This document shows, piece by piece, positions 16,130 to 21,391 of a stretch of DNA of 42,779 nucleotides. The DNA is taken from NCBI GenBank assembly GCA_013141255.1, contig JABFRJ010000120.1, forward strand, positions 1-42,779. The letters are read 5' to 3'. Under the pieces are notes generated by a model, which worked only from the letters and a program-made list of their open reading frames with translations, made no database searches and was not told where the DNA came from. The position numbers and the translations under genes are program-made. Every line of letters starts with the position of its first letter. The first letter of the stretch is position 1. Source of the DNA: Hyphomicrobiaceae bacterium. Its GTDB lineage: Bacteria; Pseudomonadota; Alphaproteobacteria; Rhizobiales; Hyphomicrobiaceae.

Positions 16130-16894
16130 TTAAGTCGTCAGCAACAACGGTTTACCGGTGCACGGGTCGATCGCCATGCTGATTGCAACGTCATTCCCTG
16201 CCACCTGACCGGCACGGATTGCGAAGTGGTCGAGAACGAGTTTCGGCTTTTTCTTTGTTTCAGCCTTATGCGTTTTGTCCGACATGATCTGCTGCACGAC
16301 CTCGGCGGGTGCGGCACGCGCCGGCGTCATGGTCAACATGCGGGTGTTGATGCGACCGGCCATTCCCATTCCGAACGAACGGGACGCCACGCGGTCGAAC
16401 GCAAGCCCGCCGCCACGAAGTACGACTTGAAACTCCTTGTCGAGGCGAGACGGCATTTCACCGCCGATGGCTTTTTCCCAGATCGTTCGCGCCGCTGCGA
16501 CCCGCCGTGCGCGTTCGCGTTTCCATGATGCGTCAATGACGTTGCGCACCATGTCGAACAGGTAGTGCGCCAGCGTGCGCCCTACGTCATCACCAACGAC
16601 GTAGATGCCGAGCGTTGACGTGAACACACCGCAGCCCGTGATGTGGTTCACGCCCAGACCGGCATAGATACAAGGGTGGCTTTGGTGCGTGTTCAACCCG
16701 ACCCCCTTTATCGGTAACAGGAACCGGTCATAGTTCGCAGCGCCCATCGCGGCCGCGTCGATTTGATATTGTGCCATCAGCTTCGCGGCCAGTTCGGCAG
16801 CGGCGGCAGCTTCGGCTTCAGTCGCACCCGCGTCGACGCGCTTCGATTGCAGGGCCTTGATCTTCGCAATAATGCGTCGGGTGTGTTCGTTCAT
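16130..16894 (-). CDS. DUF2786 domain protein
   Basis: IIAKIKALQSKRVDAGATEAEAAAAAELAAKLMAQYQID signature. Confidence 0.75.
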   Translation of the reverse strand: MNEHTRRIIAKIKALQSKRVDAGATEAEAAAAAELAAKLMAQYQIDAAAMGAANYDRFLLPIKGVGLNTHQSHPCIYAGLGVNHITGCGVFTSTLGIYVVGDDVGRTLAHYLFDMVRNVIDASWKRERARRVAAARTIWEKAIGGEMPSRLDKEFQVVLRGGGLAFDRVASRSFGMGMAGRINTRMLTMTPARAAPAEVVQQIMSDKTHKAETKKKPKLVLDHFAIRAGQVAGNDVAISMAIDPCTGKPLLLTT

Positions 16895-18513
16895 TGCGCG
16901 CCGCCATCAATGTCGCCCAGCACGAACACGCCGCGGCCAGCCTCTTTGATTAACCCGTTCGACCGCAGCATTGAGATTGCGGAGTTCCATGACCCGCCGC
17001 GCGGTTGTCGCCCCGTAGTCTCGGCAAGGTTGGGTGCCGATATGCCCTTCGGATATTGAGCGACAACGGCAAGTAGTTCGTTCGCCGGCGCCGGCAACAC
17101 GTTGATCCAAAGCTCGACCAATTCGTCGCGCGTCATCGCAGGGCGTTGTTCGGCAACCGCCGGCACGACGAAGCCGTTGACCTCGAACACATGACCACCA
17201 TCGACAAGCGACTTCTTCGCGGTGTTGAACGCGCCGCCGCGCGCCTTGCGGCCCGTGAGTGCTGCGAGCTGCCCCCATGTGAAGCGGCACGGGAATCGCG
17301 CCTGGGCTTCCGACAATAGCCGTTGCGCACCGCTGTTTAGATCACTGCTGGGCGCGCTGGGGGTGCGTTCGACTGGTCGCGGGAGCGATCGTTTCGCGGC
17401 GTAGTCAGCAAGGCGCTTCGCTTGCGCCGGTCCGACCACTGGCACGAACTGGGCGACGGGTTCAACGCCCAGAGCTTCGACCGCTTTGCCCAGATCGCGC
17501 ACCGCCGCCTGATAGCCGCTCCGGTAACCGGTTTCCTCTGCCGCCAGCAACGCGGCGGGGTCGGGCTGCATAATAACCGGGGTCGGTTGCATATTCGGGG
17601 CGGTTTGTTGCGCAACGGCCTTGCCCTGTTTCGGTTTTGCGCGTTCCGTCTCGATTGCCGCGATCTGCTCTTTGAGCTTCCCCAGGTCGAGCGGCTTGAG
17701 GGACGCGGTGCGCTTCACCTCCCCGCGTTTCGGGGTCGCCGAACTGTCGAAGGTCAGTTTTTCGGGAAAGGTGGCATCATCAAGAACGCCACGCGCGGGA
17801 ATCCACACGACCCCTTGCCCGCGCTTCAGCGTCGCCATGCGTGCCAGCATCCGCTTTTCGTCGGACTTGTTGGCCTGTCCCTCGATCCAGGCGCCGAGAG
17901 CGGCCCGGTCCTGGGAGCTGGTCAGCTTCATCGCCACCAGACCGTCGGCCTGGCTGAGCACGTCCTTGGACAGCACCGCCGGCCGCTGCGTGATAAGCCA
18001 TGGGATGTAGCCCTTGACGCGGCCGCGGCGGACGATGTTCTCCATCAGGCTTTGCAGTTGCGGTTCAATGGCCCGCTGCGGTGCCCAGAGATCGGCTTCG
18101 TCGAAAACGAGGTGGCAAGGTTCACCGCTGGCGTGGCGGTACATGGCATCGAGAAACGCCAGCATGAAGCGCCGCTCCGCAGATTTAGTGCCAAGCTCGC
18201 TCAGGTCGATGAGGCAACTTTCCGACGCCGCGGCGATAGCTTCCCCAACGACCCGCCCCGAGTGCTCGGTGATGGGAATGTCGGCGCGCGCGCCACCGAA
18301 GATGACCACGGGATAGGCTTGGTCCTTACCGTTGGCTTTGACGCGCAGCCCCCACCACACCCCGAGCGGGTCAACGACGATAACCCGCGCCTTGCGGTCG
18401 AGCAGCTTTTCAACGGCAGTACCGGCAGCATAGGTCTTGCCGGCTCCACTGGTCCCGAGCCACGCAATCCTATCGTCTAATGCGTGGTCTGATAGGGGGT
18501 ATGGCTCAGTCAT
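16891..18513 (-). CDS. HerA/FtsK-like P-loop ATPase with tandem C-terminal winged-helix-like repeats
   Basis: Walker A GTSGAGKT, Walker B-like HLVFDEAD, LITQRP; ends overlap neighbouring ORFs. Confidence 0.8.
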   Translation of the reverse strand: MTEPYPLSDHALDDRIAWLGTSGAGKTYAAGTAVEKLLDRKARVIVVDPLGVWWGLRVKANGKDQAYPVVIFGGARADIPITEHSGRVVGEAIAAASESCLIDLSELGTKSAERRFMLAFLDAMYRHASGEPCHLVFDEADLWAPQRAIEPQLQSLMENIVRRGRVKGYIPWLITQRPAVLSKDVLSQADGLVAMKLTSSQDRAALGAWIEGQANKSDEKRMLARMATLKRGQGVVWIPARGVLDDATFPEKLTFDSSATPKRGEVKRTASLKPLDLGKLKEQIAAIETERAKPKQGKAVAQQTAPNMQPTPVIMQPDPAALLAAEETGYRSGYQAAVRDLGKAVEALGVEPVAQFVPVVGPAQAKRLADYAAKRSLPRPVERTPSAPSSDLNSGAQRLLSEAQARFPCRFTWGQLAALTGRKARGGAFNTAKKSLVDGGHVFEVNGFVVPAVAEQRPAMTRDELVELWINVLPAPANELLAVVAQYPKGISAPNLAETTGRQPRGGSWNSAISMLRSNGLIKEAGRGVFVLGDIDGGAQ

Positions 18514-19060
18514 TTGGTTGTTTCCTCTGCGCCTTCGTTCTCGCCGTTGCTACGACGCGCTTGCGCACTTGTTCGGCAGATTGTTTTGACCCTGTGAAGT
18601 GGAGCTCGGCGTGCTCGCTCTGCGAGGAAAGAACCACTAGGTTTCCCGGGGTGTTATTGGCCCTGTCCTCGTCCGCGTGGTGGACCGTCTCGCCGCGTCT
18701 TAATGGTCGCCCCAAGATGCTCTCAGCTACGACCCTGTGTTCATGTCGGCCGTTGAGCTTCCTGTAGGCCTTGCCCTGACCACGGCCACGTTGCGTGTTC
18801 CCACGGGCGACAGCGGATGCTCTCGCAACCTTGGCGTTGTGATCGGGCGGGTTGATCGCCTTCAGTGCGCACCCTCGTCGACAAAACCTTTGCGCTGGCT
18901 TCTTGGGATGGTTCACGAACGTCACCCCGCATCCTTGGCAAGTGCGCTCAGTCGGACGAGGGAGCTTGCGTTTCGCGTCTCCGAGGCACTGGCGGCTGCA
19001 ATACCTCTGCGGCGCACGGGCGCGCTTGAACATGAACGTATTTTTGCAGCTCTCGCAGAC
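18506..19060 (-). CDS. HNH homing endonuclease, in-frame fused to vestigial ATPase N-terminus
   Basis: Two zinc-ribbon-like Cys clusters and HNH_3-like core KLNGRHEHRVVAESILGRPLRRGETVHHADEDRANNTPGNLVVLSSQSEHAELH. Confidence 0.85.
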   Translation of the reverse strand, partial: VCESCKNTFMFKRARAPQRYCSRQCLGDAKRKLPRPTERTCQGCGVTFVNHPKKPAQRFCRRGCALKAINPPDHNAKVARASAVARGNTQRGRGQGKAYRKLNGRHEHRVVAESILGRPLRRGETVHHADEDRANNTPGNLVVLSSQSEHAELHFTGSKQSAEQVRKRVVATARTKAQRKQPND

Positions 19061-19156
19061 GCCGCTGCCGCTGGTCCCGACGAACGCCAGCCGGTCATCA
19101 AGCGCAGCGGCTGGGATTGGATATGTCGATGTCTTTATATCGGTTCGAGTGGTCAT
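19061..19156 (-). pseudogene. Vestigial N-terminus (first 32 codons) of HerA-like ATPase, interrupted in the Walker A motif
   Basis: MTTRTDIKTSTYPIPAAALDDRLAFVGTSGSG aligns with YPLSDHALDDRIAWLGTSGAG(KT) of the downstream ATPase. Confidence 0.8.
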
Positions 19157-19407
19157 GAATTATTTTCCGTTTTCAATTGAGCGCGAACGTCGTCGGCAAA
19201 ACATTCGGCGTCCTGCAACCGGGCAACAGCGTCGACCCCAGGCACGCCCATGACTTTCAGCAGGTCGCGCGCAACAGGCATCGACAGGGGGATTGCGGCG
19301 GCATAGTTGGCGACGACACGTTCAGCGAGACGCTCAACATCAATGCCGTTCTGCAGGATGGTCAGTTGGTTGGTCACTGTGCTCTTTCCTGATTGCAGAC
19401 TGGGCAT
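19153..19407 (-). CDS. Hypothetical phage protein
   Basis: ATGA overlap with the following ATPase/HNH ORF; MPSLQSGKSTVTNQLTILQNGIDVERLAERVVANY. Confidence 0.5.
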   Translation of the reverse strand: MPSLQSGKSTVTNQLTILQNGIDVERLAERVVANYAAAIPLSMPVARDLLKVMGVPGVDAVARLQDAECFADDVRAQLKTENNS

Positions 19408-19586
19408 GGGAGCCCCTTTTTTGCTTCTGCCACGCTGCCAACAGTGACCCACCCTGAAAACCATCCGCACCGGCAGCCAAACACAGCCCCAATGCTGTCG
19501 TCAGGAAGACTTCCAGCATCGATGACGTGCGCGCGCTTTAGGCGCTTGGCGCCGGGCTTGGCGAATAGTTCCTGCTGTCGGGGCAT
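19374..19586 (-). CDS. Hypothetical protein with CRC/CPVC zinc-binding-like motifs
   Basis: MPRQQELFAKPGAKRLKRAHVIDAG...CRCGWF...CPVC. Confidence 0.45.
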   Translation of the reverse strand: MPRQQELFAKPGAKRLKRAHVIDAGSLPDDSIGAVFGCRCGWFSGWVTVGSVAEAKKGLPCPVCNQERAQ

Positions 19587-19591
19587 CGCGC

Positions 19592-19894
19592 TTACTCCCC
19601 GTCTTGCTCGATCGACATTTCGTCGAAGGGACCGTCGAGGTTTCCGGTCACCAGCATGAAATGGTGAAAGGCTACGGCCTCGACGACTGCCGCCGGCGGC
19701 ATGACGAACGCCCGGGCGCACTCAGCAACGGTTGCTTTGCCGTTTTGCTGACCAACCCAGAAGAGGATCGCATTTGCCACGATGCCGATGCCGGGGCGGC
19801 CAGAAGCATCGCTCGCATCTTCAATGCTGCTATCGTAGCCTTCGAGATTGTAGCTATCCGGGTCAGGCCCAAAGAATGGGTGCAGTACCTTCAT
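19592..19894 (-). CDS. Hypothetical protein, possible HTH
   Basis: MKVLHPFFGPDPDSYN...GKATVAECARAFVMPPAAVVEAV. Confidence 0.5.
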   Translation of the reverse strand: MKVLHPFFGPDPDSYNLEGYDSSIEDASDASGRPGIGIVANAILFWVGQQNGKATVAECARAFVMPPAAVVEAVAFHHFMLVTGNLDGPFDEMSIEQDGE

Positions 19895-19941
19895 GGGCGG
19901 CCCCATGTGAGGCTCGCCGCCACGCCGCGGCGTGGTGCAAT

Positions 19942-20195
19942 CTGGTACTTCTCAGCGCTGGTACTTGTTACCAGGATTGCCAGCGCGTGGTGCACATCGT
20001 TGACAAAAATGCATTGCTGTTTGCACTGAACACGCATGATTGACAGTGCGTCACTACCTTGAGGTGGTAGCACTGGAAACGGTGTGAAGGTTCGAGTCCT
20101 TTCAACCGCACCACTCTGTATTTGCTGTGTTTTTTGCATGTTATTCGCCTTCGATAATGCCGATAGTGTCCGTCTCTGGTTTGGTACTTTTTACC
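19942..20195. promoter_or_regulatory. Candidate phage attachment site attP (arms plus core)
   Basis: tRNA-Leu 3'-half core at 20054-20113 flanked by GGTACTTGTTACC (19960-19972) and GGTACTTTTTACC (20183-20195); next to integrase. Confidence 0.75.
20054..20113 (+). other. 3' half of tRNA-Leu(GAG): anticodon arm, variable arm, T arm, acceptor 3' strand with CCA
   Basis: CTACC-TTGAGGT-GGTAG anticodon arm; CACTGGAAACGGTG variable arm; GAAGG-TTCGAGT-CCTTT T arm; CAACCGC-A-CCA; no matching 5' half upstream. Confidence 0.8.
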
Positions 20196-21391
20196 GGAGA
20201 CGGGACCACTTCAGCTTCTGAGCACTCTTTGTTCCGGGTTTCGTCGATTAGGTTGGGTAGTGCGGCGAGCCGCTTGTCGATCATAGCCGCTGCGGTCGCG
20301 GTCTTTTCGGGCCGGGCATGGATGTAGGTCAGCCGCGTGGTCCGCTCATCTTCGTGACCGAGCAGTTGAGCGATTTCCTTCACGTCAACGTTCTCATCGT
20401 CGGCCCACGACGCAATGGTGTGGCGGATCGTGTGTGGCGTGACATCGGTCTTGAACCGCTTCCCGCCCTTGCCGTCTTCCACATACCACCCAAGCCCGGC
20501 GCGCTCGCACGCAGCCCGGAAGCCATCGCGGCACGTCGTGAGCCGGGCTCCACCATGCTCAACCACGAATCCTGACGGGCTGCGCGCGTCGTGCGCGACC
20601 AGCAGGACATCATAGGCAATCTGCGTCATGACCATTTCGGCGCGGCCTTTGCGCCAGGACTTGTTCATCGGGTCGGGCGGCAGATCGACTTCGAGATCGA
20701 TCACGCGCCGGCGGAAGTCGATCCGGCTCCATTCGAGGTCCAGGATCGCAGTGTGGCGTCCCCCGGTCGAGAACAGGAGGATAATGAACAGATTGACGTG
20801 CGGATCGCTGCTACGCGCCGCTATCAGCAGGGCCTTTGCTTCATCCGGCGTCAGCACGCGGTCACGCTTGCGGCCGGCGCTCGGAAGCCAGACCAGCGGG
20901 GCGCGCTCGATCAGGTTGGAATCGAAGGCCCACTTGAGGCATTGGCGCAACCGGATCAGTTCGGTGTGCACCGTGTCCGGCGCGCGGCCGAGGGCAAACC
21001 GCGCCTTGGCATAATTTCGGTAATCGTCCGCCTTGGCAGATGCAGGGTTGCGGTTCTCGAACACCGGCGCCAGCGACACCCAATTGTATTTGTGGATGGC
21101 ATTGCTTTTGCCGTCCTGCTCACGGTCGGCCTGCCACAGCTTCCACAACTGCCCGAATGTGTATTCCTGGCGTTGTGCAATGACGGCGCGCCGGCCGTCG
21201 GCGAACTGGTCGAGGGCCTTGCGGGCGCGCTCTGGTATTTTCTTGCCAGACGCTTCACCCGGAAGGATCTCAATCAAGCGCGCACGCTGCCGCTTTTCGC
21301 CAGCTTGGAAATCTGCGATCCAGAAGCCCTTGTGTCGTCCGAGCTTAACGTCTCCGACGCGGTAGCTGTCCGTCTTTGCTCGTCTTCCCAC
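20141..21391 (-). CDS. int: Tyrosine recombinase integrase
   Basis: STGGRHTAILDLEWSRID, PHTIRHTIASW, LLGHEDERTTRLTYIH catalytic motifs. Confidence 0.95.
   Translation of the reverse strand: MGRRAKTDSYRVGDVKLGRHKGFWIADFQAGEKRQRARLIEILPGEASGKKIPERARKALDQFADGRRAVIAQRQEYTFGQLWKLWQADREQDGKSNAIHKYNWVSLAPVFENRNPASAKADDYRNYAKARFALGRAPDTVHTELIRLRQCLKWAFDSNLIERAPLVWLPSAGRKRDRVLTPDEAKALLIAARSSDPHVNLFIILLFSTGGRHTAILDLEWSRIDFRRRVIDLEVDLPPDPMNKSWRKGRAEMVMTQIAYDVLLVAHDARSPSGFVVEHGGARLTTCRDGFRAACERAGLGWYVEDGKGGKRFKTDVTPHTIRHTIASWADDENVDVKEIAQLLGHEDERTTRLTYIHARPEKTATAAAMIDKRLAALPNLIDETRNKECSEAEVVPSPVKSTKPETDTIGIIEGE

Follow-up and report, generated by a model that had tools for sequence, protein, structure and literature searches.

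An HNH endonuclease gene between two starts of a phage ATPase gene

The DNA analysed here (the window; 42,779 nucleotides (nt)) spans an entire contig of a metagenome-assembled genome (MAG). It encodes tape-measure, tail and fibre proteins together with a ParB-like protein and a tyrosine integrase, which identifies the contig as a siphophage or its prophage. Before the integrase end, positions 20041-20113 resemble the 3′ half of a tRNA-Leu gene (+ strand ...CTTGAGGTGGTAGCACTGG...GGTTCGAGTCCTTTCAACCGCACCA...) and likely represent the attachment core; a search of the window with ARAGORN returned no complete tRNA.

The locus of interest lies on the minus strand and opens with a small gene (19153..19470) that has no match in Pfam or PHROG. 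The stop codon of this gene overlaps, as ATGA (19156-19153), the start codon of a chimeric open reading frame (ORF) of 216 aa (18506-19156). Its first 32 codons (MTTRTDIKTSTYPIPAAALDDRLAFVGTSGSG; 19061..19156), hereafter the fragment, correspond to the 5′ end of a HerA-like ATPase gene, finish with the Walker A Gly codon and are probably the native start of that gene. At the left junction (19060..19061; ...AGC GGC / GTC TGC...) the Gly codon is followed in an unbroken frame by an HNH endonuclease body (18506..19060; VCESCKNTF...HHADEDRANN), which comprises two Cys4 zinc fingers and then an HNH_3 domain and uses the ATPase start. The HNH stop overlaps by 8 nt (18506-18513) the ATG of a complete HerA-like ATPase gene (16891-18513) that begins MTEPYPLSDHALDDRIAWLGTSGAGKTYAAG (also written MTEPYPLSDHALDDRIAWLGTSGAGKT). 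The first 25 codons of this second gene, up to the Walker A Gly (18439..18513), form a divergent, recoded 5′ end, hereafter the copy, and the rest (16891..18438) runs from the Walker A Lys through a Walker B motif (HLVFDEAD) and RRGR to C-terminal winged-helix-like repeats. A PHROG match of the ATPase to the terminase large subunit was set aside, as the genome of a related podophage has a separate annotated terminase in addition to its HerA-like gene. When 19060-18439 (622 nt) were deleted in silico, Gly32 and the Walker A Lys became neighbours in one reading frame, so that the insertion is phase 0 and lies exactly between the Gly and Lys codons. These observations bear out a sequence-only reading that had placed an HNH gene at the Walker A codons, with its frame continuous from the old ATPase start, that start coupled to the upstream gene, and the intact ATPase restarting at an ATG that overlaps the HNH stop.

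A Pfam scan of the chimeric ORF gave HNH_3 at residues 139-180 (E 4.5e-8) as the sole match, and the HNH body matched the PHROG HNH endonuclease family (E 2.9e-21). All 22 residues that are invariant across a 16-member HNH family, catalytic residues included, are kept in the window protein, which is therefore probably an active enzyme, judging by sequence conservation. When the complete chimeric ORF was modelled with AlphaFold2, residues 1-30, in the ATPase fragment, came out disordered (pLDDT 55-60), and folded structure (pLDDT mostly 80-96) was predicted for the zinc fingers and the HNH domain; a fold search of the Protein Data Bank (PDB) with the HNH model returned nothing below E 0.4 and was not informative. 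About 780 alphaproteobacterial genomes contained only short, weak matches to the window HNH.

Uninterrupted relatives and the divergent ATPase start

Relatives of the ATPase were collected in two scans of viral contigs, the larger of which yielded 55 loci, and one scan of bacterial genomes. The insertion site was free of HNH in 55/55 viral relatives, all of which run through uninterrupted, and their starts share a strongly conserved consensus, PIPxxALDDRL..GTSGSGKT(Y). Over the 19 residues before the Walker A Lys, 36 non-redundant relatives were identical to one another at 0.742 ± 0.064. The fragment fits this family well: its mean identity to the 36 relatives was 0.800, and 20/21 residues (95%) equal those of one relative, L002. 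Uninterrupted alleles matching 19061-19156, for which the sequence-only reading had called, thus exist, and the fragment is a family-typical start. The copy reached a mean identity of 0.557, which is 3.1 SD under the value predicted from its own gene body. In the nearest relative (L099; body identity 0.75), N-terminal identity was 0.89 with the fragment and 0.58 with the copy. DNA identity to the relatives followed suit (fragment, 0.63-0.82; copy, 0.47-0.60), and at residues held in common with relatives the same codon was used at 0.29 in the copy, 0.38 in the fragment and 0.47 in the gene body. The 32 residues right after the Walker A Lys were ordinary for the family (0.69), and the divergence is therefore confined to the stretch before the insertion point. 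Atypical starts do occur in the family: among relative pairs with comparable bodies, 4.9% have an N-terminal identity as low as that of the copy and L099, and the N terminus of one member (L128) is even more atypical than the copy. The starts closest to the copy (L126 and L113) were only 0.68 identical over 19 residues. The compared segments (19-25 codons) are too short for a tree. None of the relatives found carries both N termini.

The two starts were also compared directly. A hand count gave 13/21 residues in common, 9/13 of them with different codons, as the sequence-only reading had stated; a computed alignment gave 11/19 common residues, 4 of them by the same codon. The alignment score (76) was above chance, the 99th percentile of cross-locus controls being 58-59, and the DNA identity was 0.61. 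The sequence-only reading had argued from these codon differences against a fresh tandem duplication; the differences are real, but the contrasts in amino acid and DNA identity to the relatives are the stronger evidence. The third-position GC content (GC3) of the copy (0.58 vs 0.74 in the rest of the ATPase gene) is a weak sign of foreign origin, since values equally low occur in 7% of windows elsewhere in the gene.

Recurrence of the layout and stop-containing Walker A inserts

A wider scan for the HNH family allowed the sequence before and after the HNH to be compared systematically in 94 distinct phage HNH loci. Six other loci have a fragment, an HNH and a divergent remade 5′ end, three of them at Walker A itself; fragment/copy scores in the clear cases were 65-143 (controls, 58-59 at the 99th percentile). 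The sequence-only reading had proposed a phage version of gene-end replacement; such a layout is indeed present, not as a single oddity but as one that recurs in superfamily 2 (SF2) helicases and Sak4-like ATPases. In the SF2 helicases L307, L297 and L270, the fragment ends at Walker A (...VLAVLPTGGG) and the remade helicase starts read ...VLAVLSTGGGKTY or ...VLAVMPTGSGKTTC; the L297 layout is found identically in a separate contig (L298). Another SF2 helicase (L277) has a shorter fragment whose border lies further upstream than Walker A. The contig of the closest HNH relative (L011) has the layout in a Sak4-like recombination ATPase, the HNH ORF beginning MPREFTDSPAVRSQVPLL and the next ORF, which overlaps the HNH stop, beginning MRTFDDKPAERTQVPLLIGLVSPSGGGKT. 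A further Sak4-like ATPase (L236) is a weaker case, with a score of 46 that falls within the control tail, yet it is collinear from the start. As the fragments in L011, L236 and L277 end before Walker A, not every case is placed exactly at the P-loop. On inspection, neither L238 nor L240 had a duplicated 5′ end, and the scores of L240 and L043 were produced by out-of-frame or low-complexity stretches.

Comparison of L307/L297 with L270 separated the pieces of the layout. Identity was 0.85 in the upstream gene and 0.88-0.90 in the fragment, 0.70 in the HNH, 0.54-0.60 in the copy and 0.70-0.72 in the gene body, so that a breakpoint lies at the fragment/HNH border and the fragment groups with the backbone of the phage. 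Conservation is lowest in the copy. On these sequence comparisons, the data support the view that the fragment would be native and the copy its replacement.

Most relatives of the window HNH directly precede P-loop helicases, often in the order VRR-NUC, HNH, SNF2 helicase. At at least 30 distinct loci, the helicase Walker A codons hold an insert with a stop codon right after the last good codon (L049, L052, L048, L057, L060, L061, L065, L069, L070, L073, L074, L075, L076, L077, L082, L164, L195 and about 20 more among L237-L313). These loci include complete genomes (Paenibacillus phage Pd_22F, Ruminococcus phage NatCom_23091 and Glutamicibacter phage Montesquieu), and examples of the inserts are GGCTTAGGT TAGGT AAAACA and GGCCTCGGT TAGC AAGACC. 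The Walker A becomes perfect again if 4, 5, 6, 9, 10 or about 45 nt are skipped, and the helicase downstream is intact, with purifying selection between interrupted pairs (dN/dS 0.149/1.59, 0.080/0.858 and 0.258/2.16). Among 80 SNF2 helicases fetched regardless of HNH, 76 had no detectable HNH, and 73/76 of these were intact; L195, which does have an HNH, was scored as intact in error. At three loci (L173, L200 and L225), a stop-containing insert stands at or just before the SNF2 Walker A and no HNH of the window family was detected nearby; the insert may have outlasted an endonuclease that has since been lost. Other arrangements were also seen. In L063 (= L012) and L243, the HNH lies within an SNF2-type gene just before motif I and the gene is in pieces; in L243, the second piece also has its Walker A interrupted by a stop. 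In L189 (2380-2501), an SNF2 helicase beside an HNH is uninterrupted and reads FQECGLGKT vs the usual FLDMGLGKT, possibly a target-site escape by point changes. In L164, the upstream ORF resembles, by eye, the C-terminal part of a different homing endonuclease, with a NUMOD-like stretch (VQIISPTGEVFKFGNMREASQKLF).

The form of the stop-containing inserts suggests that they are candidate sites of ribosomal bypass or frameshifting. There is, in our estimation, an even chance that a single large family of phage HNH enzymes has Walker A coding DNA as its homing target, in ATPases and helicases that are unrelated to one another, and that the host genes survive in three ways: by a remade 5′ end (the window, L297, L307, L270 and others), by a split gene (L063) or by bypassed or frameshifted stop inserts (4 to about 45 nt). 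The third way, if true, would make natural short-range bypassing common in phages; to our knowledge, T4 gene 60 is almost the only established phage bypassing case. T4 gene 60 with its MobA neighbour provides a known parallel to the Walker A inserts, a likeness in form and not in function (PMC5009743). Short ribosomal hops have long been presumed to exist, according to a 2016 review (PMC5009743), and the Walker A inserts would offer many natural candidates for them.

Proposed replacement of a severed gene start and its known counterparts

We favour, with moderate confidence, a phage homing-endonuclease insertion followed by replacement of the severed 5′ end. Comparison with the relatives shows that the HNH gene entered the HerA-like ATPase gene after the Walker A Gly codon and before the Lys codon, and the fusion in which it has kept the native start and first 32 codons as a leader is seen in the sequence. 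It would be expressed as this fusion, coupled to the upstream gene, and the ATPase would be made from the second ATG, overlapping the HNH stop, via the divergent 25-codon 5′ end. In the DNA, that end meets the old gene body precisely where the insertion lies, and the comparisons show both its divergence and the limit of this divergence. Of the earlier claim that the displaced end was replaced by a divergent copy, the specific divergence of the first 25 codons stands; as to the source of the new end, import from some distant relative and recoding of the resident end in place, perhaps driven by escape from cutting, fit the data equally well. Either way, the divergent end would restore the protein and at the same time alter the recognition sequence, so that the phage's own genome would be spared from cutting. 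In a mixed infection, the HNH, presumably recognizing the DNA around Walker A, would cleave Walker A alleles that have no insert and place a copy of itself there; we infer such cutting and spread from the type of HNH family and from its repeated association with Walker A codons.

Alternatively, one-sided homing might have pasted the HNH together with a foreign 5′ fragment upstream of an intact resident ATPase gene, whose own start would then be the divergent one. A whole resident gene requires no repair step, and the uninterrupted helicase of Synechococcus phage S-H1, which is without the HNH, has a single start that resembles the copies, not the fragments (0.78 nt identity to the L270 copy). 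We consider this account unlikely, although it deserves to be taken seriously, because the window copy misfits its own gene body (-3.1 SD) and because in L307, L297 and L270 the fragment is conserved like the upstream backbone gene, whereas the HNH and the copy are not. An origin from two tandem paralogous ATPase genes, the first cut down to its N terminus by HNH insertion and deletion and the second intact, would agree with the divergence of fragment and copy (0.61 nt identity) but is improbable: a second upstream copy of the N-terminal motif occurs in 0/55 relatives, no pair of independent full-length ATPases was found, the anomaly sits in the copy and not in the gene body, and the layout in other gene families would demand repeated tandem duplications.

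Removal of 19060-18439 by splicing, as a group I or II intron or an intein, would restore the ATPase with its native start; the ends are in phase, the joined product is a perfect ATPase and HNH genes are commonly found in group I introns. Splicing is nonetheless very improbable. A loose Rfam search (E<=1) detected no intron in 17500-20500, HNH coding occupies nearly all of the 622 nt, Pfam detected no intein HINT domain, a stop codon stands at 18506-18508, and a second complete N terminus inside the insert would serve no purpose; the absence of intron and intein assumed in the sequence-only reading thus held. The window case is known from a single MAG contig, and its exact junction was not found in other viral contigs, as would be expected of a chimera of metagenome assembly. 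Such an artefact is hardly credible given the continuity of the frame, the ATGA and 8-nt overlaps, and the recurrence of the layout at six further loci, of which one is present on two separate contigs (L297/L298).

If insertion with replacement of the severed start is the right reading, endonuclease-linked replacement of gene ends, for which fungal mitochondria gave the only descriptions that we found, also happens repeatedly in phages, where it affects the opposite gene end and the ATPase motif that is conserved most. Selfish genes would have in it a definite way of rewriting the starts of essential genes, and the tolerance of a homing enzyme aimed at a near-universal motif can be put to the test. 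A phage counterpart at the N-terminal end was not found in a literature search that mostly did not extend to subscription journals.

Several known systems share parts of the layout. Inteins occur in the Walker A motif of phage and microbial ATPases and are inserted at the same conserved P-loop codons; the window insert, unlike these, has no HINT domain and ends in a stop codon, so that protein splicing does not apply. HNH homing endonucleases of the I-HmuI type (PDB 1u3e) have a similar HNH core, with a weak profile match (E 0.14) and a weak fold match, but the window HNH has a zinc-finger front end and is not intron-encoded. MobE in Aeh1 nrdA and MobA in T4 gene 39/60 are free-standing T4-type homing endonucleases that split genes (PMC2988022, PMC5009743). 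Like the window HNH, they are promoter-less phage HNH endonucleases that sit in a critical coding region and are translated via coupling; in those cases, however, the gene remains split or acquires an insert of 50 nt that is bypassed, whereas the window gene is whole by virtue of a second 5′ end. The ATPase gene of the window has no bypass cassette of the T4 mobA/gene 60 type, and its Walker A is intact. The closest likeness in layout is to the hybrid genes of fungal mitochondria, in Allomyces atp6 and in Glomus atp6, atp9, cox2 and nad3, where mobile endonuclease ORFs are accompanied by a foreign C-terminal end and the native end lies beyond (PMC3630166). Here too an endonuclease ORF lies in a conserved gene, a divergent end restores the gene and the native severed end remains. 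The fungal hybrids, however, concern the C-terminal end, LAGLIDADG or GIY-YIG endonucleases and mitochondria, whereas the window concerns the N-terminal end, an HNH endonuclease and a double-stranded DNA (dsDNA) phage, in which the endonuclease uses the displaced native start.
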